NCBI RefSeq assembly: GCF_014838715.1
Contig: NZ_CP061947.1
Span: forward strand, 3,286,001 to 3,350,000
Length of the DNA: 64,000 nucleotides
Direction of reading: 5' to 3'
Source: Algoriphagus sp. Y33
Lineage (GTDB): Bacteria > Bacteroidota > Bacteroidia > Cytophagales > Cyclobacteriaceae
Shown: positions 5,665 to 64,000 of the stretch, piece after piece
Numbering within the stretch: position 1 is the first letter of the stretch
Layout of the letters: each line of letters opens with the position of its first letter
The notes under the pieces: generated by a model
Told to the model about the DNA's origin: nothing
The model's input: the letters and a program-made list of their open reading frames with translations, nothing else
Databases searched by the model: none
Translations under genes and position numbers: made by a program

Positions 5665-6435
5665 ATGTTTTTCTATCTATCCCAATTCCTGAGCTTTCTT
5701 GCAATGCCACTGACGATTATATCGCTTTTATGGCTATTTGGACTGCTGTATATCAGGAAAAAATGGGGGAAAAGATGTCTCTGGATCGGATTGATACTAC
5801 TCTGGTTTTTCTCCAATCAGTTTATTGCAAATCAAGCGATGCTGGCTTGGGAACCTGAATTTAAGGGCTTCAATGAGGTGAAAAATCATGAAATCGGCAT
5901 CGTGCTTACCGGTGTAACCAACCTGAGCAAAACAGCATATGACCGTACTTTTTTCAATAAAGGTGCTGATCGGATCACACATGCATTGCAGCTATACCGG
6001 GAACGGAAAATCAAGAAAATTCTTATCACAGGCGGTCAGGGTCTAAATCCTGTCAATCCTCAATCAGAAGCTGAGCTTTTGGAGCGGTTTTTGTTGATGA
6101 CCGGTGTTCCTGCAGAAGACATTATGATCGAAGATAAATCGAAAAATACTGCTCAAAATGCAGCGTTTACGAAGGAGTTTTTAGATGCAAAAGGAATTGA
6201 TACAAATCAGGAATTTTTGCTGATCACTTCTGCTTTTCACATGTATAGAGCGAAAGGGTGCTTTGATAAGGCAGGTTTAAAAACCCAAACTTTCCCAACA
6301 GACTACTACAGTCATGACACAAAATATGACCTTCCTGCATTTTTATATCCTAACCCTTCATCAATCGAAAACTGGCACAAATTGTCAAAGGAATGGATCG
6401 GGATTTTAGTATATAAGTTAGTCGGGTATATTTGA
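5665..6435 (+). CDS. YdcF/SanA/ElyC family membrane-anchored protein (DUF218)
   Basis: A 256-aa protein with two N-terminal hydrophobic segments (about residues 1-30 and 38-58) and a soluble DUF218 domain behind them. Family signatures are visible: EIGIVLTGV near residue 76, ILITGGQG near 118, the SEAE segment, EDKSKNTAQNA near 157 and LLITSAFHMYRA near 187. Members act at the cell envelope (ElyC affects lipid carrier use and peptidoglycan, SanA affects vancomycin resistance), but the chemistry is not settled. The gene is single and is bracketed by two copies of a short dispersed repeat. Confidence 0.8.
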   Translation: MFFYLSQFLSFLAMPLTIISLLWLFGLLYIRKKWGKRCLWIGLILLWFFSNQFIANQAMLAWEPEFKGFNEVKNHEIGIVLTGVTNLSKTAYDRTFFNKGADRITHALQLYRERKIKKILITGGQGLNPVNPQSEAELLERFLLMTGVPAEDIMIEDKSKNTAQNAAFTKEFLDAKGIDTNQEFLLITSAFHMYRAKGCFDKAGLKTQTFPTDYYSHDTKYDLPAFLYPNPSSIENWHKLSKEWIGILVYKLVGYI

Positions 6436-54060: not shown

Positions 54061-56052
54061 TTAATTACCCTTCCTAATCACCAAATGCTTCTTCCCTGGA
54101 TCATTCAATAACTTTCCCATTTCAGCCTGAATAATATCCTGCACATCCTGCTTGATCTGCAAATAATTTCGCTGCACGATAGCATTGTCCCGCTTTCGGA
54201 TTTCAGGAATGGGCTGGTAGTTATCCTGCTCCTTTTTCAATACCTTATGATCGTTAATAATTTCAGAATGAAATGCTTTTAGGCTCAGTTTACAATCTGG
54301 ATTATCTGCTACCATCCCTACAAATTCCCCTGATGAAAGAGATGATATGGTAGAAGGTGGAACAGCAGACTCCAACTGTTTTGATCGACTGACAGAAGTA
54401 TCTGCACTGTTTATGGAAAGGCTCTGCCTGTCTTGCATGATCTTCCCTATCCTATCTGATAATTGTTTGGCAGAATCCCCATTCACCTGCCCTGAAATGA
54501 TATTTCCAACTATGCCCATAATCACATCGGCAAGTTCTCGTCCATAGTCTTTTCTAAGCTGGCTAAGATCCTGAACTCCCAATGTAGTAGCAACTTTATT
54601 ACTCCTTGCCGTAGCAATCAGACTGTCCATTCCGTTCAAATAGATGGTCGGAAACTCATCGAAAATCAGACTGCTTTTTAGCTTTCCCTTTTGGTTTACC
54701 AGCTTCACTAGACGGTTTACATACAGTGAAAGTACTGCTCCATAAATCTGAATTTTCTGGGGATTGTTTCCCATGCAAACCAACTTTGGCTCCTCCGGAT
54801 TATTGATATCCAGCGTAAAATCATTGCCTGAAAGCACGTAATATAACTGAGCTGAAGATAGTCTTGCCATGGATATTTTAGCCGATGCTATCTGTCCTTC
54901 CAGCTGCTCCATCACATCGTTGAGGTAGGCATTTACAAAAGGATTGATGAGCACATCAATGTCCTTTTCGGTTCGCAATACTGTGAACAACTCATCGTAA
55001 TCAACCTGCATCAACTCGATGACATGCGGCAGCGTGCAGAATTCTCCACCGTTGTATTTTCTCAAAAACCAGATGATAGCAGTCAGGAAATTGATCGGTG
55101 ATTCCACAAAAAAGTCTCCTTGCTTTTTGATCCATTCCCTGTTCAAACCCATCAATATCGTCCGGGCTGATTCTGCTGCATCAGTAATATCCAACATGGT
55201 CTCCGGTGCCAATGGGTTGCAGCGATGGCTCCGTGTAAGATCATCAAAATTGATAACATAGAATGCTGGAACTACATTATAACTAGCCTTATTTTTAAGC
55301 CAGGTATTGTAAACAATGGATGACAGATCATCGAATTTAAAGTCATACACAAACATGGAAAAGCCCTTTTTGATGTGCTGGGTGATCACATGTCGGATGA
55401 CAAAATAGCTCTTTCCCGAACCCGGTGTTCCCAAAACCATCAGTCCACGAAATGGATTGATGACATTGATCCAGCTGTCTCTAACCTTTCCTTTCAGTTT
55501 ATATTTTGCAGGTAGATTAACTGAGAATTCATTTTCTAGCAGCCGTTCTTCTTGAGGGAATGTTTCATTCTCTGAATTGAAAACATCACTACTGAGTTTG
55601 TCATAAATAATTCTAGAAAGCTTAGTTCCACCCGAAAGGATAAGCAAAAAACCTAAGGAGGTAACTGTCATGTAGGTAATCGAAATCCATTCTATTGGCG
55701 CTTCCCACAGCATCAAGACGTAACTGCCTGAATAAAATACCAGGCCCAAAACGCCATAAACCGATGCTGTTTTGGCATTCATCTTTTCATTCTTCCTACC
55801 CTTGATTCCCAAAAGTGAGATCGCAAGCAAGGCAATCGCAATAAGCTTGGAGGTATAAAAATTCTCAAAGAGACCGGTACTTATAACATTCTCTAATACT
55901 CCATCAGTCAGATCTGAAACCAGTCCCCAATCTTTGAAAGTAGCATAGCAATAGTAATAAAAATGCAGTCCCAAAACCCCAACTCCCATTAAGCGGGTCA
56001 TGTCCAAAATCTTGCGTAATCCCTGTTCGTTTTCTCCAGTTTGCATCCCCAT
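54061..56052 (-). CDS. mobC: VirD4/TraG-type coupling protein (MobC of Bacteroidetes elements)
   Basis: A 663-aa membrane ATPase that brings relaxosome DNA to the transfer pore. Several N-terminal TM helices (about 15-140, with the aromatic HFYYYCYATF run like the YWFCY domain) are followed by Walker A GTPGSGKS (208-215) and Walker B SLIFDEFPTI. It is the last gene of the mobilisation unit, 20 bp after the relaxase gene. Confidence 0.9.
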   Translation of the reverse strand: MGMQTGENEQGLRKILDMTRLMGVGVLGLHFYYYCYATFKDWGLVSDLTDGVLENVISTGLFENFYTSKLIAIALLAISLLGIKGRKNEKMNAKTASVYGVLGLVFYSGSYVLMLWEAPIEWISITYMTVTSLGFLLILSGGTKLSRIIYDKLSSDVFNSENETFPQEERLLENEFSVNLPAKYKLKGKVRDSWINVINPFRGLMVLGTPGSGKSYFVIRHVITQHIKKGFSMFVYDFKFDDLSSIVYNTWLKNKASYNVVPAFYVINFDDLTRSHRCNPLAPETMLDITDAAESARTILMGLNREWIKKQGDFFVESPINFLTAIIWFLRKYNGGEFCTLPHVIELMQVDYDELFTVLRTEKDIDVLINPFVNAYLNDVMEQLEGQIASAKISMARLSSAQLYYVLSGNDFTLDINNPEEPKLVCMGNNPQKIQIYGAVLSLYVNRLVKLVNQKGKLKSSLIFDEFPTIYLNGMDSLIATARSNKVATTLGVQDLSQLRKDYGRELADVIMGIVGNIISGQVNGDSAKQLSDRIGKIMQDRQSLSINSADTSVSRSKQLESAVPPSTISSLSSGEFVGMVADNPDCKLSLKAFHSEIINDHKVLKKEQDNYQPIPEIRKRDNAIVQRNYLQIKQDVQDIIQAEMGKLLNDPGKKHLVIRKGN

Positions 56053-56072
56053 CCCCTCCTAGTTTAATCCTG

Positions 56073-57356
56073 TTATTTTACCTGCTTTCTCTTTTTCCGT
56101 TTCTTCTTCCGCCATTCAAATGGCAGGTAACTATACGTCTCCATCGGTGTAATCACTTCATCAAACAAACCACTTGAAGAGCCATTGGAAGTTCTGGTTT
56201 CCTTATCAGAATTCAGTATGATAGATCGCTGAGCGTGTGAAATTTTCTGCTGGAGACTTGGTGATTTGAGGAACGATTCGGTAGAACCCGTTTCATTTTT
56301 CTGAATACTTTTTAATCGATTTAACAATCCATTCACACTGTATTTTTTACCCAGTGCACTTCCGTTAAACACACATTTGGTTCGGTGGTCAACATAAGTA
56401 ATCCCATACAGCCGACCTTCTTGATTCTCCCGTTTGACCGTGACAATGCCCTGCTTCTCCAGGCATTTTATTACCTCATCCAAACTGCTTTTATGCATCT
56501 TCAATACAGTCAGATCAATTGCTGAGCGAATGGAATTGATATATTTCTTACGTTCTGTTTTATTGAATTCAAACTTTGATTCTATGGCATTAAGTGTAGC
56601 AGGAAAATGAAAACTGCTTGCCTTTACAGGTACCCCAACTTTATTTCCTTGACCATCCAACACCCGGTAAACCAGTCCTCTATTTTTGAAAATTCGTGAT
56701 TCTTCAGTCCCACGGTCAGCCAAAATCCGATAGCCTTTCAATAACGCATTTAGTTCAGGCAAGGAAGTGTAACTGTAGTTTCTTAACACATGTTGCAATA
56801 CATTTCCAATAGCTCTCTTAGTCTCAGATTTACCATAGTCCAGTTTGGAAATCGACACAGGCTTTGCTATAAAAAGGCCCTGTTTCTGAGACTCGGCTGG
56901 CACCAAACCAAACTGTTTTTCGATGGCTTTTCGGGTCGGTTCAGACTTGAGTTTTCCGATATTATGCAAGGGAATCCGCTTGCCGTCGAGCTCAATATTG
57001 GTTGTCACAATATGCAGGTGTGGGTGGCCTGCATCGGTATGTTTATACACCAGATAAGGTTGGTTTTCAAACCCAATCCCATGCATGTATTCCTTGGCAA
57101 TCTTTTGTAATTTTTCTTTTTCAAAATCCTCTCCAGGAGCAAAATTGAGAGAAATATGCACTGAATTCACTGAAGTTTTGGAGTTCAATTCAGTCAGTTT
57201 AAGCATGTATTTCAAACGAATATCTGCTGACTTGATCCCTTCCTCAACCGGATAGTTCTGGATCAAAAGCAATTCAGCCATTCCTTGTTCTACCTTATTT
57301 TCATTGTAGTGGAATGGTCGTCTTAAAGAAGCGCTGGTCTTTATGATTGCAACCAT
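56073..57356 (-). CDS. mobB: relaxase (MobB-like mobilisation nuclease)
   Basis: A 427-aa relaxase of the PF03432 type. The three-His metal motif is HPHLH (111-115), preceded by YKHTDAGH and by the NSVHISLNFAPGE strand (about 64-76). It should nick oriT and stay on the DNA 5' end. The C-terminal half (about 240-427) is basic with no known fold. It overlaps the accessory protein gene by 16 bp. A candidate oriT hairpin lies 64 bp upstream of that gene. Confidence 0.9.
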   Translation of the reverse strand: MVAIIKTSASLRRPFHYNENKVEQGMAELLLIQNYPVEEGIKSADIRLKYMLKLTELNSKTSVNSVHISLNFAPGEDFEKEKLQKIAKEYMHGIGFENQPYLVYKHTDAGHPHLHIVTTNIELDGKRIPLHNIGKLKSEPTRKAIEKQFGLVPAESQKQGLFIAKPVSISKLDYGKSETKRAIGNVLQHVLRNYSYTSLPELNALLKGYRILADRGTEESRIFKNRGLVYRVLDGQGNKVGVPVKASSFHFPATLNAIESKFEFNKTERKKYINSIRSAIDLTVLKMHKSSLDEVIKCLEKQGIVTVKRENQEGRLYGITYVDHRTKCVFNGSALGKKYSVNGLLNRLKSIQKNETGSTESFLKSPSLQQKISHAQRSIILNSDKETRTSNGSSSGLFDEVITPMETYSYLPFEWRKKKRKKRKQVK

Positions 57357-57730
57357 TTCGCTGCTGATTGATTGATAAAAAGGGTAACCGATTTCAGTGA
57401 ATCTTCAATCACCCGCTGTAATATGTTTCCCTCAGAAAGGTGAATTTTTAGTTCATTTCCAGTAGTTGAATTTATCTTTTTCACCAACTGATTATAGTTG
57501 GTAGCAATACCATGCAAGTCTCTCCTCAGCGATGCTAACTCGGCCAAAAGTTCCTGCATTCCGGTATCCTTATACCTCCCGATAACAGGCTTTTTCAAAA
57601 GCAATTTTCTGGTATAATCACTTAGATTATCCTGAACTGTCTGCTCAAATGCCACTTGGATTTTCTCATATTCTTGAAGTGTCAGCCTAACATGCAACCA
57701 TTTGCTTCTTTTGTTCTTTTCCTTCATCAC
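57341..57730 (-). CDS. ribbon-helix-helix mobilisation accessory protein (MobA/MobC-like)
   Basis: A 129-aa basic protein. An N-terminal RHH-like part (WLHVRLTLQEYEKIQVAF, about 10-30) is followed by a helical region with the NYNQLVKKINS signature usual in relaxosome accessory proteins. It would bind oriT next to the relaxase. Its start codon is the upstream end of the mobilisation unit. Confidence 0.85.
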   Translation of the reverse strand: MMKEKNKRSKWLHVRLTLQEYEKIQVAFEQTVQDNLSDYTRKLLLKKPVIGRYKDTGMQELLAELASLRRDLHGIATNYNQLVKKINSTTGNELKIHLSEGNILQRVIEDSLKSVTLFINQSAAKWLQS

Positions 57731-58809: not shown

Positions 58810-59649
58810 CTATTGATATCCCATATCCGTATCATCCATCCGCTTCACCAAGCTTTCCTTCAGACCATCCAAAAAGATTGTTCTCCCTTTTTTTCTGCCC
58901 CTCATGCTCTGGAATGTGCGGTAGAAATTCCCAACTTTCACATGAAAGATTTTCTCCAGAATCGATATGATCATCTTCACATCACTCTTTCCGTGATTTA
59001 CAGAGCCTCTTGAATGCAGCGCATAAGCCAATTCAATCAATGCAGACTTTGAGTCCGTCCATTCATGGTTTGAATTTTTGTCCCCACTTTTACCTAGCCC
59101 CAATTCTAATTTTATTAACTGTTCTTGCATATATTCAATCAGACTTTCATAAGCCATTATTTTGGCCAACTTACTGCTGTTCACTGTAGAAAACTCCGGG
59201 TCAAAATCAAAGGAATAATCTGGGATAAATGAAACAGGGAGAGAATTTCTTAAAAACAGCTGTTCGTCCTGGTCACTCCTATCCAACTGATGGTAGATAT
59301 AGAGCTGATGGTTTCTAGCAAAAAAATCCTGAATCTGATCCATTACATGATGATAATACGACTTGATAAGCTCTTTCTTTCCTATAGGTCTTCTTGATTC
59401 AATGTAGGTAAGCTCAGAATAAAATATTAGTTCTTTATAAAATAGAGGTTTGTACTCCTTAAAGAACTTTATCTCCTCGGTACTATCAGCAAATTGATAT
59501 CCCCCCATAAACAATTTAAGTTTGAGTAAAATAGCATGGACAGCTCTTCCACTTTTCTCAGCTTTTTGTATTTCGCTTGAAGTTTCTTTCGCCACCTCTT
59601 TCAGTGACAACTCCATCTCCTCAAAAAGCTTTTCTACAAATGCTTTCAT
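58810..59649 (-). CDS. RteC-domain regulator, copy 2
   Basis: A 279-aa protein. It shows the RteC features EEIKFFKEYKPLFYKELIFYSEL (about 59-80), NHQLYIYH, SDQDEQLFLR, a WTDSKSALIELAYALHSRG segment and a closing RTFQSMRGRKKGRTIFLDGLKESL. RteC in CTnDOT is a winged-helix activator of excision genes. It is a clear paralogue of the upstream copy in domain order and spacing, but well diverged. Confidence 0.82.
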   Translation of the reverse strand: MKAFVEKLFEEMELSLKEVAKETSSEIQKAEKSGRAVHAILLKLKLFMGGYQFADSTEEIKFFKEYKPLFYKELIFYSELTYIESRRPIGKKELIKSYYHHVMDQIQDFFARNHQLYIYHQLDRSDQDEQLFLRNSLPVSFIPDYSFDFDPEFSTVNSSKLAKIMAYESLIEYMQEQLIKLELGLGKSGDKNSNHEWTDSKSALIELAYALHSRGSVNHGKSDVKMIISILEKIFHVKVGNFYRTFQSMRGRKKGRTIFLDGLKESLVKRMDDTDMGYQ

Positions 59650-59734: not shown

Positions 59735-60583
59735 CTACTTCGCAGCTTCAAAACTACTCATATAAGCCTCCAGACTTTCTTTGCACTTGTCGAGAAATAC
59801 AGTCCTATTTTTCTTACGCGTCTTAATTTCCAGGAAGGTTCTATAATACCCTTGCAGTTCCCTACCGAATACTTCTGCCAGAATGGTTGCCAATTCCGTA
59901 ACACTGGCATTTCCGTAATTTATTGCATTTGAAGTTTTCAGGGCATATACCAATTCCACCAAGTCCGCCTTTTTCCCAGTCCAAAGCAATTGGGGATTTT
60001 TACCTTCATTAACTGGGCTCTTGGCGTCATGTAAGAACAATAGTTGATCATGGATATAGCCTGCCAATGAAAGAGTGCCCATGATCCTGGCACAATACAA
60101 AGTATAGACAGTACAATATCTGGTATCCAGGGTATGCCAGAATAAATTCGGCTTATATACTGGCGCCTGAGCACTTCTTAAGAAAAAAACCTTGTCCTGG
60201 TTCTCTTTTCTCATTAGGAGATAATTGTAAAGGTTCTGGTTGCTTTGTAAGAACTCCTGTACACTCAGCAATTCCTTTTCGTAGAATTTTCTGATTTCAT
60301 GTTCCGACCCAGCCGGTTTGACAGACTCCATATTGAAAAGCTCGGAGAAATAGACAGACTCCCTTAGGAGGTAGGTCATATGGTGTTTGAAGAATTCTAT
60401 CTCCTCAGTATCAGACGCAAATTCGTATTTATCCATGAACAGTTTGATCTTATCCAAAGCCCTATCCACTAGGTGAAAGGCAGATTCAAATTGGATGAGC
60501 TTGTTTTCTCCATCCATTTTCAAAACCTCCAGATCATTTTTCAGTCTGGAGATTATCTGGTCCGAAAACGCGAGAATGCTCAT
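59735..60583 (-). CDS. RteC-domain regulator, copy 1
   Basis: A 282-aa protein with the same layout as copy 2: EEIEFFKHHMTYLLRESVYFSEL, NQNLYNYLLMR, KENQDKVFFLR, LLWTGKKADLVELVYALKTS, and at the end RTFLEIKTRKKNRTVFLDKCKESL. The start is 23 bp after the Crp-terpene synthase gene stops, so the transcript is shared. By analogy with CTnDOT it may switch on excision or transfer genes; its DNA target is not known. Confidence 0.82.
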   Translation of the reverse strand: MSILAFSDQIISRLKNDLEVLKMDGENKLIQFESAFHLVDRALDKIKLFMDKYEFASDTEEIEFFKHHMTYLLRESVYFSELFNMESVKPAGSEHEIRKFYEKELLSVQEFLQSNQNLYNYLLMRKENQDKVFFLRSAQAPVYKPNLFWHTLDTRYCTVYTLYCARIMGTLSLAGYIHDQLLFLHDAKSPVNEGKNPQLLWTGKKADLVELVYALKTSNAINYGNASVTELATILAEVFGRELQGYYRTFLEIKTRKKNRTVFLDKCKESLEAYMSSFEAAK

Positions 60584-60606: not shown

Positions 60607-62160
60607 TCAACTCTTCCTGTAGCGTGGAGAAATCGAAAGTGACCAATGCACTGAACCTGCAATCTTGTATTTGATCTGCTTGAGGTATTTCAGTATACCA
60701 CTGTTTTCAGGCTTGTATTCCTCTCTCCATCTTCTTTCCAGCACCATAAATTCCTCCAGTGTTTCCGCATGCAGGTTCAAAATTTCCTGCTGGGCCTCTT
60801 TGAAACTCATTCCTTTATGTTGCATCAATAACGCCACGGCATTCATAAAATCACCTCTATCAGTTTCTTTTTGGTAAGATATCAAGTCGTTGGTTAAGTA
60901 GATCAGCTTGGCAGCCTGCACACGGAGATCGGATGTTTCTTTCCAATCAAAAGAATCACTTGAAAAATTCTCACTTGATTCAAAGGCACAAAGGGCCAAG
61001 GCTAGATTTCCTCCTGAAAAAGCTGGCCTGATAACCTGGTATTCTTCCCAACTAGGCAGAGTCTTTTTGTCCTTAAATTCCGCTTCAATTTTATTCTTTT
61101 GCATATAATTCAGAACCTCGGAAAATATCAGTCCCTTCAGTTCCTTATGGCCAGAAACCAGCGCATCGAATTCTGTAGCCAGATCACTAAAAGCATTTAG
61201 GAAAACTGTTATACGATCAGGATTAAATCCCAATGGCTTACCCCCCATGATGTTATCAACCCCAGTCAGTAGATAATCCCAAAAACCTGCTTTCTGCCCG
61301 AAATGCAAATCATCTGTCAAATCATCCAGATAAAACAGCCAGAGGTAGAGCTTGGAAATCCAAACCCCTTTTTCAATATCAATTTCCGGATACAGGCAGG
61401 AGGACAGGTAACTGAATTTTTGTTCTTTGTAATAGGCGATCTCAACGTTGTTCCTAAGGATTGAATGGAAGTGAAAAGCCCAGGAGACAGTCTGTTCCTC
61501 GATTTCAGCTGCATCAGTGTGGACATAGGCAGGAAATGGATAGTGTAGCAATTTTCCAAGTTTTCCACTTTTATCAGCAGGTTTTTTACCAGTGGACTCT
61601 TTCTTAATACGTGCTGCTGTAGCGTAGCTTACCCCCAGAAGGCTCGCCTTTTCATTATTGGTCAGATCATAGGTGAACTTGGGGAACTTCTCTTCAATCA
61701 CCTTGAGTTTGTCCCGGTAGTTCATCTGGGTAAATGCATGCCATTCCACATCAGAATGTCGGACTTTTGCAATCTGGGATTTTGAAAAGTCTGTGAACTC
61801 AGGTATTTCCTTCAGCAATAGCGTTTCATTTGGGTAGGAAAGGCTTATATAAAAAGATTCTCCCAAAGACCTAAAGCGAAATTTACTGGGCATCTGTGTT
61901 TGATAGGATTCAAAATCCATAAAGACATCACCCGGAAAGTAGAGTCTGGACAACTTACCCATATAGTACATCCCGATCATTCCTTCCACCAGAAACCTGG
62001 ATTCGGTTTCCACAGTACCGGCATGACGGATGGTAGCTTTTCGTTTAGCAATCCTTATTTCCAGAAATTCACCTACTTTTTCAAAAGCATTATCACTCAC
62101 TTTACCTCCCAGTCCGAAAAGTTTCTTTAAAAACGTTGGATCCAAATCATACCCATTCAT
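60607..62160 (-). CDS. Crp/Fnr-like sensor fused to class I terpene synthase
   Basis: A 517-aa two-part protein. Residues about 10-135 form a cyclic-nucleotide-binding-like beta roll (LVEGMIGMYYMGKLSRLYFPGDVF pattern, short PGD turn) and 145-190 a Crp-type winged HTH (TNNEKASLLGVSYATAARIKKE pattern). Residues about 205-517 are a terpene synthase: aspartate motif DDLTD (279-283), pyrophosphate-sensor Arg378, NSE motif NDLISYQKE (424-432) and the C-terminal RY pair (513-514). All residues for Mg and diphosphate handling are present, so the cyclase is likely active on FPP or GPP. No methyltransferase or prenyltransferase lies nearby. It is the first gene of an operon with two RteC genes. Confidence 0.85.
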   Translation of the reverse strand: MNGYDLDPTFLKKLFGLGGKVSDNAFEKVGEFLEIRIAKRKATIRHAGTVETESRFLVEGMIGMYYMGKLSRLYFPGDVFMDFESYQTQMPSKFRFRSLGESFYISLSYPNETLLLKEIPEFTDFSKSQIAKVRHSDVEWHAFTQMNYRDKLKVIEEKFPKFTYDLTNNEKASLLGVSYATAARIKKESTGKKPADKSGKLGKLLHYPFPAYVHTDAAEIEEQTVSWAFHFHSILRNNVEIAYYKEQKFSYLSSCLYPEIDIEKGVWISKLYLWLFYLDDLTDDLHFGQKAGFWDYLLTGVDNIMGGKPLGFNPDRITVFLNAFSDLATEFDALVSGHKELKGLIFSEVLNYMQKNKIEAEFKDKKTLPSWEEYQVIRPAFSGGNLALALCAFESSENFSSDSFDWKETSDLRVQAAKLIYLTNDLISYQKETDRGDFMNAVALLMQHKGMSFKEAQQEILNLHAETLEEFMVLERRWREEYKPENSGILKYLKQIKYKIAGSVHWSLSISPRYRKS

Positions 62161-62363
62161 GATGATGACTGTTTAGATTACACAGTACTTCCGATAACAA
62201 AACTCCTTGCCAGAGCTTACATTTAAATTGCCTTTGCAGTTGAAGACCCAACTGCCGAACTTGCTTAGTTCTATTATTCACTAAAAAAACAGTAGTCCAG
62301 TTTAAAATCCCGACACCTAAAAACCAAGTAATCAATCACTTATTTTTCAAAACCATCTAAAAT

Positions 62364-62378
62364 TGTATAATTGATACA
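62364..62378. promoter_or_regulatory. inverted repeat between the terpene synthase and MauE genes
   Basis: TGTAT-N5-ATACA is a perfect inverted repeat in the 293-bp divergent gap, about 205 bp before the Crp-terpene synthase start and 76 bp before the MauE gene. Crp/Fnr proteins bind such two-fold sites (classic half site TGTGA), so it might be an operator for the N-terminal domain. The link is inference only. Confidence 0.3.
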
Positions 62379-62453
62379 CTTTTTAAGTTTATCACCCACC
62401 TTGTGAATTCTGGATTTTTATAATACCCAACTTTCCATCGAACATTAAAATGA

Positions 62454-62870
62454 ATGGAAAACACAGAAAAATCAGCTATCCCAAGCATCCTGCTGATCCT
62501 CTTATGGACCTATACTGGAATTGACAAAATCCTACACTGGCAGGACAGCAGAAAAGCATTCCATAACCAGACCTTTCCTGCAGAGCTGGCAGAAGTACTG
62601 GCCTATGCAGTACCGACTATTGAGTTGCTGATTGCCTTACTCCTACTCTTTTCAGTCAGTAGATGGTGGGGATACCTCTCAAGTATCCTCCTCCTCACCG
62701 TCTTCACCACCTATGTGGGATTGATCTGGGTAGGAGCTTTTCCCAGAGTTCCCTGCAACTGTGCGGGAGTTTTAGAAAGCTTAGGTTGGAAAGCACATTT
62801 CTGGCTTAACAGTGGAATGATTGGAATAAGTATCATCGGACTATACTTCACAAAAAAGCGGAATCCTTAG
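62454..62870 (+). CDS. MauE/DoxX-like membrane protein
   Basis: A 138-aa protein with four TM helices (about 8-25, 48-66, 70-92, 112-132). The PCNCAGV motif after the third helix (about 100-106) matches the Cys pair of MauE-type redox membrane proteins. MauE helps disulphide formation in amine dehydrogenase; here the partner is unknown. It stands divergent from the terpene synthase operon. Confidence 0.75.
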   Translation: MENTEKSAIPSILLILLWTYTGIDKILHWQDSRKAFHNQTFPAELAEVLAYAVPTIELLIALLLLFSVSRWWGYLSSILLLTVFTTYVGLIWVGAFPRVPCNCAGVLESLGWKAHFWLNSGMIGISIIGLYFTKKRNP

Positions 62871-63274
62871 ATCCCGCCTTGAGGCGTTAAGTTTTTAGTA
62901 GGTGATAGCAACTATTTCCTTAAACAATATAAACTAAATATTAATTACATCAGCATCTAAAGAGTAAATAATTAAACACTATCGCTCTGAAGAATAAAGA
63001 CTTGTCACTAGGCATTTGAAAAAACGGGGCAGGAAAAGGCATTATCCCACCCCAAAAAATAGCTTAATGAAAATCAACTCAATTCACCGCATTACCTGTC
63101 TCCGAATCTGGAAGTGGAGACTCCAGACTATACTGGGTGATGCAAGAGGGAGATGCCGAAAACCCTTTAAACAGAGTAGGTATTTTAACCACTTCCGGTA
63201 AACAGCATGTAGCTCAATCCGGGAATCCTAAACGTTTTCCCTGTTTTTGATTTGTTAAAAAACAGGACACAACG
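62871..63274. other. 404-bp gap with possible gene remnant
   Basis: In the plus strand a frame of about 59 codons (about 63070-63249) without an upstream ATG reads like protein, with GDSRLYWVMQEGDAENPLN and TTSGKQHVAQSGNP, and ends at a TGA. It has no recognised family and may be a decayed 3' end of a gene. A different 61-codon ATG frame over the same bases looks like noise. Nothing else is seen in the gap. Confidence 0.25.
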
Positions 63275-63559
63275 ATGAATACTTTAATTAAAAGATTACC
63301 TGCTTTTGCATTTGTAATAGCAGCCTTTGCTGCATTTGCATTCAATGCTCCTGTCATAGGCAGCGAACCTACGGCAACTAAAATCTGGACCCCAGACACT
63401 TCCCAACCTAATGGCTACCGGGATGTCACTATTCAGGTTCAATCCGAGGACTATGAGTGTAATGCCAGTGGAATGGATTGTTTGGTAGAATTCTCCAACG
63501 ATAACCCTGCGACTGGCATCCCTAACGTCCTGAGCGAAGGAGAATTCGTAGAATTATAA
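63275..63559 (+). CDS. small secreted protein (DUF6520-like)
   Basis: A 94-aa protein with a signal peptide (about 1-24, ends FAFNA). The mature part has a YECNASGMDCLVEF pair of Cys six residues apart and ends acidic. It resembles the short secreted DUF6520 proteins found in clusters in Bacteroidota. Function is unknown. A strong terminator follows 19 bp after the stop. Confidence 0.6.
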   Translation: MNTLIKRLPAFAFVIAAFAAFAFNAPVIGSEPTATKIWTPDTSQPNGYRDVTIQVQSEDYECNASGMDCLVEFSNDNPATGIPNVLSEGEFVEL

Positions 63560-63578
63560 TTTAAAACTTATAGGCACT

Positions 63579-63609
63579 AACCCAAGGCTCTGCTGAGCCT
63601 TGGGTTTTT
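63579..63609. terminator. bidirectional rho-independent terminator
   Basis: Stem AACCCAAGGCTC/GAGCCTTGGGTT with loop TGCT, followed by TTT on the plus strand and preceded by AA on the minus strand. It separates the small secreted protein gene from the converging SusD-like gene. Confidence 0.85.
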
Positions 63610-63614
63610 GTGGA

Positions 63615-64000
63615 TCAAGGATTCTGGATTATTCCACTTCTGCTGATTTCATCCAATGGAATAGGAAATGCATATCTAGGAGAATTAGGAGCCAATTCAT
63701 ATCGAATCCCATTCACTTCTCTCACCAAAGTTTCTGTTTCACCTTCCTGATTCAATCTCCTCAAATCCATCCAGCGCAACCCTCTCCCTATCAACTCTTT
63801 TCTTCGTTCTTGCAGAATTCTTTCCAATACCTCTTCTAAGTTCAATTCGGCTAATGGCACCCAAGAATCTGATTGATACCTTAAGGAAAGCAAGTCATTG
63901 AGCATACTTAATGCCTGGTCATCCTCGCCTGTTCTGACCAATGCTTCCGCAGCATTCAGGTACAGTTCCCCTACACTGATCCCACCAAAATTCTGTGTAG
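63615..64000 (-). CDS. RagB/SusD family lipoprotein, C-terminal part (5' end outside window)
   Basis: The frame is open from the window edge to a stop at 63615 (about 128 codons). It reads GELYLNAAEALVRTG, then ILQERRKELIGRGLRWMDLRRL and YAFPIPLDEI, ending NP; all are SusD C-terminal signatures. SusD-type proteins are outer-membrane lipoproteins that cap a SusC/TonB channel for oligosaccharide or peptide uptake. A SusC gene would be expected beyond the right edge, upstream of it. Confidence 0.85.
   Translation of the reverse strand, partial: TQNFGGISVGELYLNAAEALVRTGEDDQALSMLNDLLSLRYQSDSWVPLAELNLEEVLERILQERRKELIGRGLRWMDLRRLNQEGETETLVREVNGIRYELAPNSPRYAFPIPLDEISRSGIIQNP

Follow-up and report, generated by a model that had tools for sequence, protein, structure and literature searches.

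A Crp/Fnr-type regulator joined to a class I terpene synthase on one chain in Algoriphagus and related Cyclobacteriaceae

The window, by which we mean the whole stretch of 64,000 nucleotides of Algoriphagus sp. Y33 analysed here, carries near its right end a gene for a Crp/Fnr-type regulator joined to a terpene synthase. The features of this gene are as follows.

60607..62160, minus strand: Crp-type regulator/terpene synthase fusion, 517 aa (open frame, Pfam, homologues, structure model)
61597..62160, minus strand: Crp/Fnr-type half, residues 1-188, with beta-roll, long helix and winged helix-turn-helix (profile matches, secondary structure of the model)
61597..61683, minus strand: helix-turn-helix (HTH) region, residues 160-188 (aligned to the HTH of CAP)
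61549..61596, minus strand: fast-evolving linker, residues 189-204 (dN/dS, low pLDDT)
60619..61548, minus strand: class I terpene synthase half, residues 205-514
61312..61326, minus strand: Asp-rich metal motif (DDxxD), residues 279-283
61027..61029, minus strand: pyrophosphate-sensor Arg378, 46 residues ahead of the NSE Asn (alignment)
60865..60891, minus strand: NSE motif, residues 424-432
60619..60624, minus strand: RY pair, residues 513-514

The first-pass annotation had read this gene as a Crp/Fnr-type regulator fused to a complete class I terpene synthase, and our results agree. The 517 codons form a single intact frame, and 19 further full-length fusions were found, which rules out two genes or a frameshift. 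Residues 1-190 had been taken as Crp-like. A profile built from 17 Crp parts matched Cytophaga hutchinsonii 3dn7 (6e-12) and E. coli CAP (3e-9) from the roll through the HTH, in support of that assignment. In the structure model (mean pLDDT 87.4), the strands and helices of the Crp half followed in order, residues 189-198 of the linker had a pLDDT below 50, and the fold matches listed were terpene synthases only. The synthase half has the alpha-helical class I terpenoid fold, with the DDxxD, the NSE, the sensor Arg378 and the RY pair all present. D279, D280 and D283 of the DDxxD, N424, D425, S428, K431 and E432 of the NSE, and the RY pair were invariant across all 20 rows from the first search. 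The catalytic motifs were intact in 25 of 25 fused rows when a motif-less genus and one further locus, L099, both described below, were left out. The sensor position was Lys in four of these 25.

Both halves are under constraint while the linker drifts. With some dS values near saturation, dN/dS was 0.05 and 0.15 in the Crp half (defined in two of six pairs) and 0.11-0.18 in the synthase half (defined in four of six pairs). The linker, of 16 codons only, gave 0.68-1.02 in three of four defined pairs and 0.26 in the fourth.

The first protein search returned 20 proteins, namely the window's own cluster (99%) and the 19 other fusions, of 515-522 aa and 39-90% identical to the window protein. Among 11 named fused records, nine were from Algoriphagus, one was from Litoribacter populi and one from a metagenome bin labelled Flavobacteriales. 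One fused protein was labelled 'CRP-like cAMP-binding protein' in one source and 'terpene synthase' in another, each label naming one half. Later protein searches with alignments added one more protein, then two more. All these counts are lower bounds, since the protein searches missed fusions of other genera that were found by genome search. The fusion had been called unusual. It is not a one-off: the fusions make up a conserved family, with a single fused clade. No Crp-synthase fusion was named in the titles and abstract openings of the literature matches listed, a partial set with subscription papers and preprints outside it.

We searched 295 genomes of the window's family, Cyclobacteriaceae judging by the named records, with PF19086 and read the locus of every match with profiles of both halves. 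There were 51 matches in 36 genomes. A Crp link was seen in 48 of them: 22 were fused, and 26 had a same-strand Crp-type gene upstream. This rules out a chance juxtaposition. Of the fused loci, 19 belonged to the main kind, including G232, where a frame change breaks the gene, and three were motif-less. For 23 of the 26 unfused pairs the frames lay less than 200 bp apart. Twelve of these overlapped, nine of them even when frames were counted from the first start codon. For the remaining three pairs, the Crp gene was about 1.4 kb off with other frames between. The three matches without a Crp-type gene were G201, G002 and G090. The synthase of G002 is broken and lies close to a contig end, but there is room upstream and a long frame occupies it; G090 is a weak PF19086 match unconfirmed by the family synthase profile.

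The window genome itself had four matches: the fusion, two overlapping pairs and one pair with a broken synthase. One of the overlapping pairs (L189, C1 at about 2570290) has an unfused synthase in which NSE residues have been lost, so that motif loss is seen a second time besides that of the motif-less fusions. A remote second Crp-like gene (18.7-41.6 bits) was seen upstream of the fused gene at L146, L150, L151, L153, L154, L155, L158 and L159.

Outside the family, the family-built profile found a Crp-type frame at none of 42 synthase loci (L016-L057, mostly Actinomycetota); this profile was built on Cyclobacteriaceae Crp proteins and could miss remote Crp genes. As a further control, we took two overlapping samples of 395 genomes each, one across the phylum and one across the class. 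Terpene synthases occurred in three of the sampled genomes outside the family, and none of the six matches in these other Bacteroidota had a same-strand Crp-type gene upstream. At one of these matches (L194 in G498, 5728-6330), however, a Crp-type gene lies divergent from two tandem terpene synthases at about 290 bp.

The distances in the Crp halves followed those in the synthase halves (r 0.87, 55 pairs). For 25 unfused pairs r was 0.80, and the largest value in 1000 permutations was 0.23. Since the Crp-linked synthases fall into a single clade (56 rows, support 99), the pair counts are not independent; what matters is that the Crp-synthase link has outlasted great divergence.

In a synthase tree built by a quick method with Actinomycetota as outgroup, all 31 fused rows formed one clade with support 99. 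Its nearest relatives were two unfused pairs (support 89), with the other 23 unfused ones beside them. This arrangement suggests that the fusion arose from an older gene pair in which Crp preceded synthase. The very divergent fused proteins of one genus, the motif-less one, had raised the possibility of two independent fusions, which the single fused clade rules out. In AU tests, the 25 other fused proteins as a clade of their own were not rejected (p-AU 0.264), and the motif-less clade outside all fused and unfused Crp-linked synthases was disfavoured (p 0.013).

The neighbours of the fused gene in the window are as follows.

62361..62383, no strand: candidate operator in the divergent promoter region, core 62364-62378 palindromic
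62454..62870, plus strand: small membrane protein of the MauE type, divergent from the fusion (PF07291, E 4e-31)
63275..63559, plus strand: small secreted-type peptide of the DUF6520 family (the orthologue at L005 matches PF20130 with 27.8 bits, cut-off 25.4)
63615..63998, minus strand: SusD/RagB-type lipoprotein, cut by the window end (the full-length orthologue at L005:5167-6546 matches PF14322)
59735..60583, minus strand: first RteC-type protein, its frame beginning 23 bp after that of the fusion ends (PF09357, E 5.7e-55)
58810..59649, minus strand: second RteC-type protein (PF09357, E 2.7e-68)
54061..57730, minus strand: mobilisation genes for a MobC coupling protein, a MobA/VirD2-type relaxase and a NikA/MobC-like protein

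A gap of 293 bp separates the fusion from the MauE-type gene, which is the divergent neighbour in most of the loci drawn. Beyond it come the DUF6520 peptide and then SusD and SusC, oriented towards MauE-DUF6520; past SusC, L005 has a thioredoxin-like gene that is below its cut-offs. In loose single-linkage clusters of the neighbours, counted by genomes or records, MauE-like proteins numbered 41, SusD-like proteins 41 and DUF6520 peptides 26. The SusC-SusD/DUF6520/MauE unit (62454-64000 in the window) is recurrent, also without Crp or synthase. MauE-DUF6520 occurs with a Crp gene and no synthase at L106, and several of 30 MauE loci had no Crp frame within the 1.5 kb examined. The synthase therefore seems to have been added to a MauE-DUF6520 locus that had a Crp link. 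An Rfam match to the DUF805b cis-regulatory RNA (63146-63182, plus strand; 42.7 bits, cut-off 35.6) lies upstream of the DUF6520 gene. We found no mention of DUF6520 in the literature searched, which had subscription papers and preprints outside it. None of the recurrent neighbour clusters that were identified, a subset of the clusters, was an isoprenoid or tailoring gene, so that a pathway is not apparent.

In three clades an RteC gene follows the fused gene after 5-106 bp, often with transfer or mobilisation genes next. RteC followed the synthase at none of the 25 unfused loci drawn. RteC does, however, also follow a Crp gene at L229, a MauE locus with no known synthase. The fusion may ride on mobilisable elements.

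The candidate operator (23 bp) is the longest invariant block of the gap among seven close orthologues, three of them near-identical. At less closely related fused loci, palindromes with different sequences occupy the aligned position. Over eight rows, 40 of 48 arm positions were paired, which ranks first among 417 choices of centre and gap (mean 13.1, sd 5.2); the independent weight is below eight rows because four rows share one sequence. The arms of the palindrome have thus changed together between lineages. The gap (62161-62453) had been proposed as the DNA target, and the proposal gains support from this conserved palindrome.

A palindrome of the form CA-NN-TG was present in 11 of 22 gaps of unfused pairs, compared with 0.77 in shuffles (largest shuffle 4), and nine of the 11 sat 165-221 bp ahead of the Crp frame; the forms of palindrome were picked after viewing the regions or a palindrome list. 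At fused loci this form was not enriched (one of 24, shuffled mean 0.67). A distance-binned test over 11 fused loci gave no clear peak and lent no support to an operator that keeps a constant distance to the start. In the genome, the 13-bp core had three exact copies. The two besides the promoter one lie inside coding frames, so that the exact copies speak against a genome-wide regulon. With one mismatch allowed, the core occurred at 18 places, 15 of them inexact, and the reversed pattern at six.

We consider it, on balance, probable that the fusion is a synthase covalently linked to a Crp-type regulator dedicated to the same locus, forming a terpene 'trigger enzyme' that links terpene supply with transcription. 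Trigger enzymes, such as PutA, BirA and NadR, are enzymes with a DNA-binding domain of their own. The computations showed both halves, their intact motifs, selection on each of them, the gene pairs of relatives, one fused clade and the conserved promoter palindrome; catalysis and its substrate, DNA binding by the window protein, the regulatory target and a coupling of the halves are inferred, in the following way. The Crp half would bind the palindrome in the promoter region common to the fusion and the divergent MauE-DUF6520 unit. The synthase half would turn a prenyl diphosphate, most likely FPP, into a cyclic terpene. Its state, with substrate, diphosphate or product bound, would probably alter the action of the Crp half. 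In this simplest model the synthase half would report the prenyl-diphosphate state to a Crp half that occupies the divergent promoter region, and transcription of the locus would thereby be tied to the supply of terpene. The first-pass annotation had offered two alternatives, a terpene synthase regulated by a bound ligand and a transcription factor with the cyclase fold as its sensor. These remain the right ones.

A further clue comes from a motif-less clade of six fused proteins, from six genomes of one genus. The genus is Echinicola, according to two matching records (E. rosea, E. marina) named as a cyclic nucleotide-binding protein and a terpene synthase family protein. In all six, two of the three Asp of the DDxxD, the Ser and Lys of the NSE and the RY pair were replaced; the NSE Glu was replaced in five, and R378 was retained. 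One of these proteins, when modelled (mean pLDDT 85.3), gave terpene synthases in all of its best ten rows against that fold, with a target TM of 0.70-0.78, and also matched Crp proteins. For three of the six, dN/dS was 0.21-0.32 in the synthase-like half and 0.16-0.23 in the Crp half. In L199 the Crp half is above the Pfam cNMP cut-off and the other half has no Pfam match. A 472-aa fused frame elsewhere (L099 in G045, C40, 5060-6478), whose synthase half is partly recognised (61 bits) and has no motifs, is possibly another degenerate fusion.

For the Echinicola clade, the strongest indication that the fold works for the regulator is a half that selection keeps although its catalytic residues are gone; there the enzyme fold looks as if it had been turned into part of the switch. 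One might extend this to the whole family: the synthase fold would have been recruited as a Crp-type sensor, catalytic in most fusions and dead yet regulatory in Echinicola, and would connect isoprenoid flux directly with transcription of a surface locus, MauE-DUF6520-SusCD. We regard this wider reading as possible, somewhat short of probable.

The motif-less proteins also bear on the idea that the synthase half is mainly a sensor: the protein would be a transcription factor using the synthase fold to detect prenyl diphosphates (or a terpene), with any catalysis incidental. Their retained sensor Arg and fold, the constraint on their synthase-like half and the state of L199 would all suit it. 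We nevertheless consider it unlikely for the window protein, because a pure sensor needs no catalytic residues and the window's clade has kept them in all 25 rows. Moreover, three of the six motif-less proteins are still above the PF19086 cut-off, so that their divergence is partial, and motif loss is not special to the fusion, as L189 demonstrates.

The two halves may act independently. Two ordinary functions could have been joined on one chain for equal dosage only, with no signal between them, as a flexible, fast-evolving linker would allow. The overlap of the frames in 12 of the 26 unfused pairs fits this idea and suggests that translational coupling probably came first. Equal dosage leaves the constraint on the synthase-like half after motif loss unexplained, and we hold it to be quite improbable.

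The Crp half could also serve the enzyme only, for allostery or dimerisation, with an HTH that no longer binds DNA; this seems very improbable. In its favour, the Crp half of the window protein is below every Pfam cut-off, and cNMP domains without an HTH are joined to terpene-cyclase systems in family 2B encapsulins (PMC8346489). Against it, the HTH pattern is kept, with T181 and R184 nearly invariant in 36 fused rows, and the promoter-region palindrome has paired changes.

If a biosynthetic fold has indeed become a transcriptional sensor here, the fusion could be used directly as a biosensor component that responds to prenyl diphosphates or terpenes. It would also open a first way into the MauE-DUF6520-SusCD loci of Bacteroidota, which are uncharacterised. 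To our knowledge, bacterial terpene synthases have been studied as enzymes, and their ties to gene control are mostly unknown. The one-chain fusion, the gene pairs of its relatives and the motif-less descendant would form a natural series on the recruitment of a fold as a sensor.

The fusion can be compared with several known systems. With bacterial class I synthases (PF19086; T-muurolol, 1-epi-cubenol and 10-epi-cubebol synthases) it has in common the fold and the metal- and diphosphate-binding motifs; unlike them, it carries a Crp-type regulator at its N-terminus. Its best match to an NCBIfam equivalog was 74.7 bits against a cut-off of 500, too far off for the terpene product to be named. 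With Crp/Fnr regulators such as CAP and 3dn7 it has in common the order of beta-roll, long helix and winged HTH, but in the window protein an enzyme domain follows the HTH. Arg82 of CAP, which binds the phosphate of cAMP, aligns without a gap to Ser92, a residue that does not vary among the fused rows (36 of 36). A classical cAMP pocket is therefore not expected, and both cAMP binding by the fusion and classical cAMP control are unlikely.

The fusion would work like a trigger enzyme, with an enzyme and a DNA-binding domain on one chain. We know of no trigger enzyme that uses a terpene synthase, and none was named in the titles and abstract openings of the literature matches listed, a partial set.

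The precedent first suggested for the fusion was separate Crp/Fnr-like genes next to the cyclase in 2-methylisoborneol (2-MIB) operons. This precedent calls for a correction. In PMC8346489, cNMP domains lie inside family 2B encapsulin shell proteins, in 904 operons with terpene cyclases, and many of these operons include the type of methyltransferase that is characteristic of 2-MIB synthases. In PMC5009524, genes next to a terpene synthase are annotated simply as cyclic nucleotide-binding. The cyclic-nucleotide-binding genes associated with 2-MIB are probably encapsulin shell genes.

A special kinship of the Crp parts to encapsulin 2B was considered and is no more than a weak lead. Against the NCBIfam 2B shell model, five of the 17 Crp parts gave weak matches (best 1.8e-7, 30.6 bits, cut-off 400). 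The match was in part common to Crp proteins without a synthase (L103, L105), and L172, a Crp partner of a synthase, matched the CRP model only. The Crp partners L161, L166, L169 and L178 had the 2B shell model ahead of CRP models, far below the cut-off. There was no NCBIfam shell match for the window protein or its Crp part, and no shell gene among the recurrent neighbours identified in the neighbour clusters. The synthase half matched two family 2 cargo models far below their cut-offs (47.1 bits against 1200 and 34.1 against 400).

The closer precedent for the fusion is the tandem, separate Crp and synthase genes of its own family. As described in PMC8346489, the family 2B encapsulin operons resemble the fusion in that a cNMP-type domain is tied to a terpene cyclase. 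Their cNMP domain sits in an HK97-type capsid protein, whereas that of the window protein is followed by an HTH, and the window chain is filled by the Crp part and the synthase. On this comparison, a cNMP-type domain appears as the partner of terpene cyclases in two settings, the 2B encapsulins and the Crp-linked synthases.
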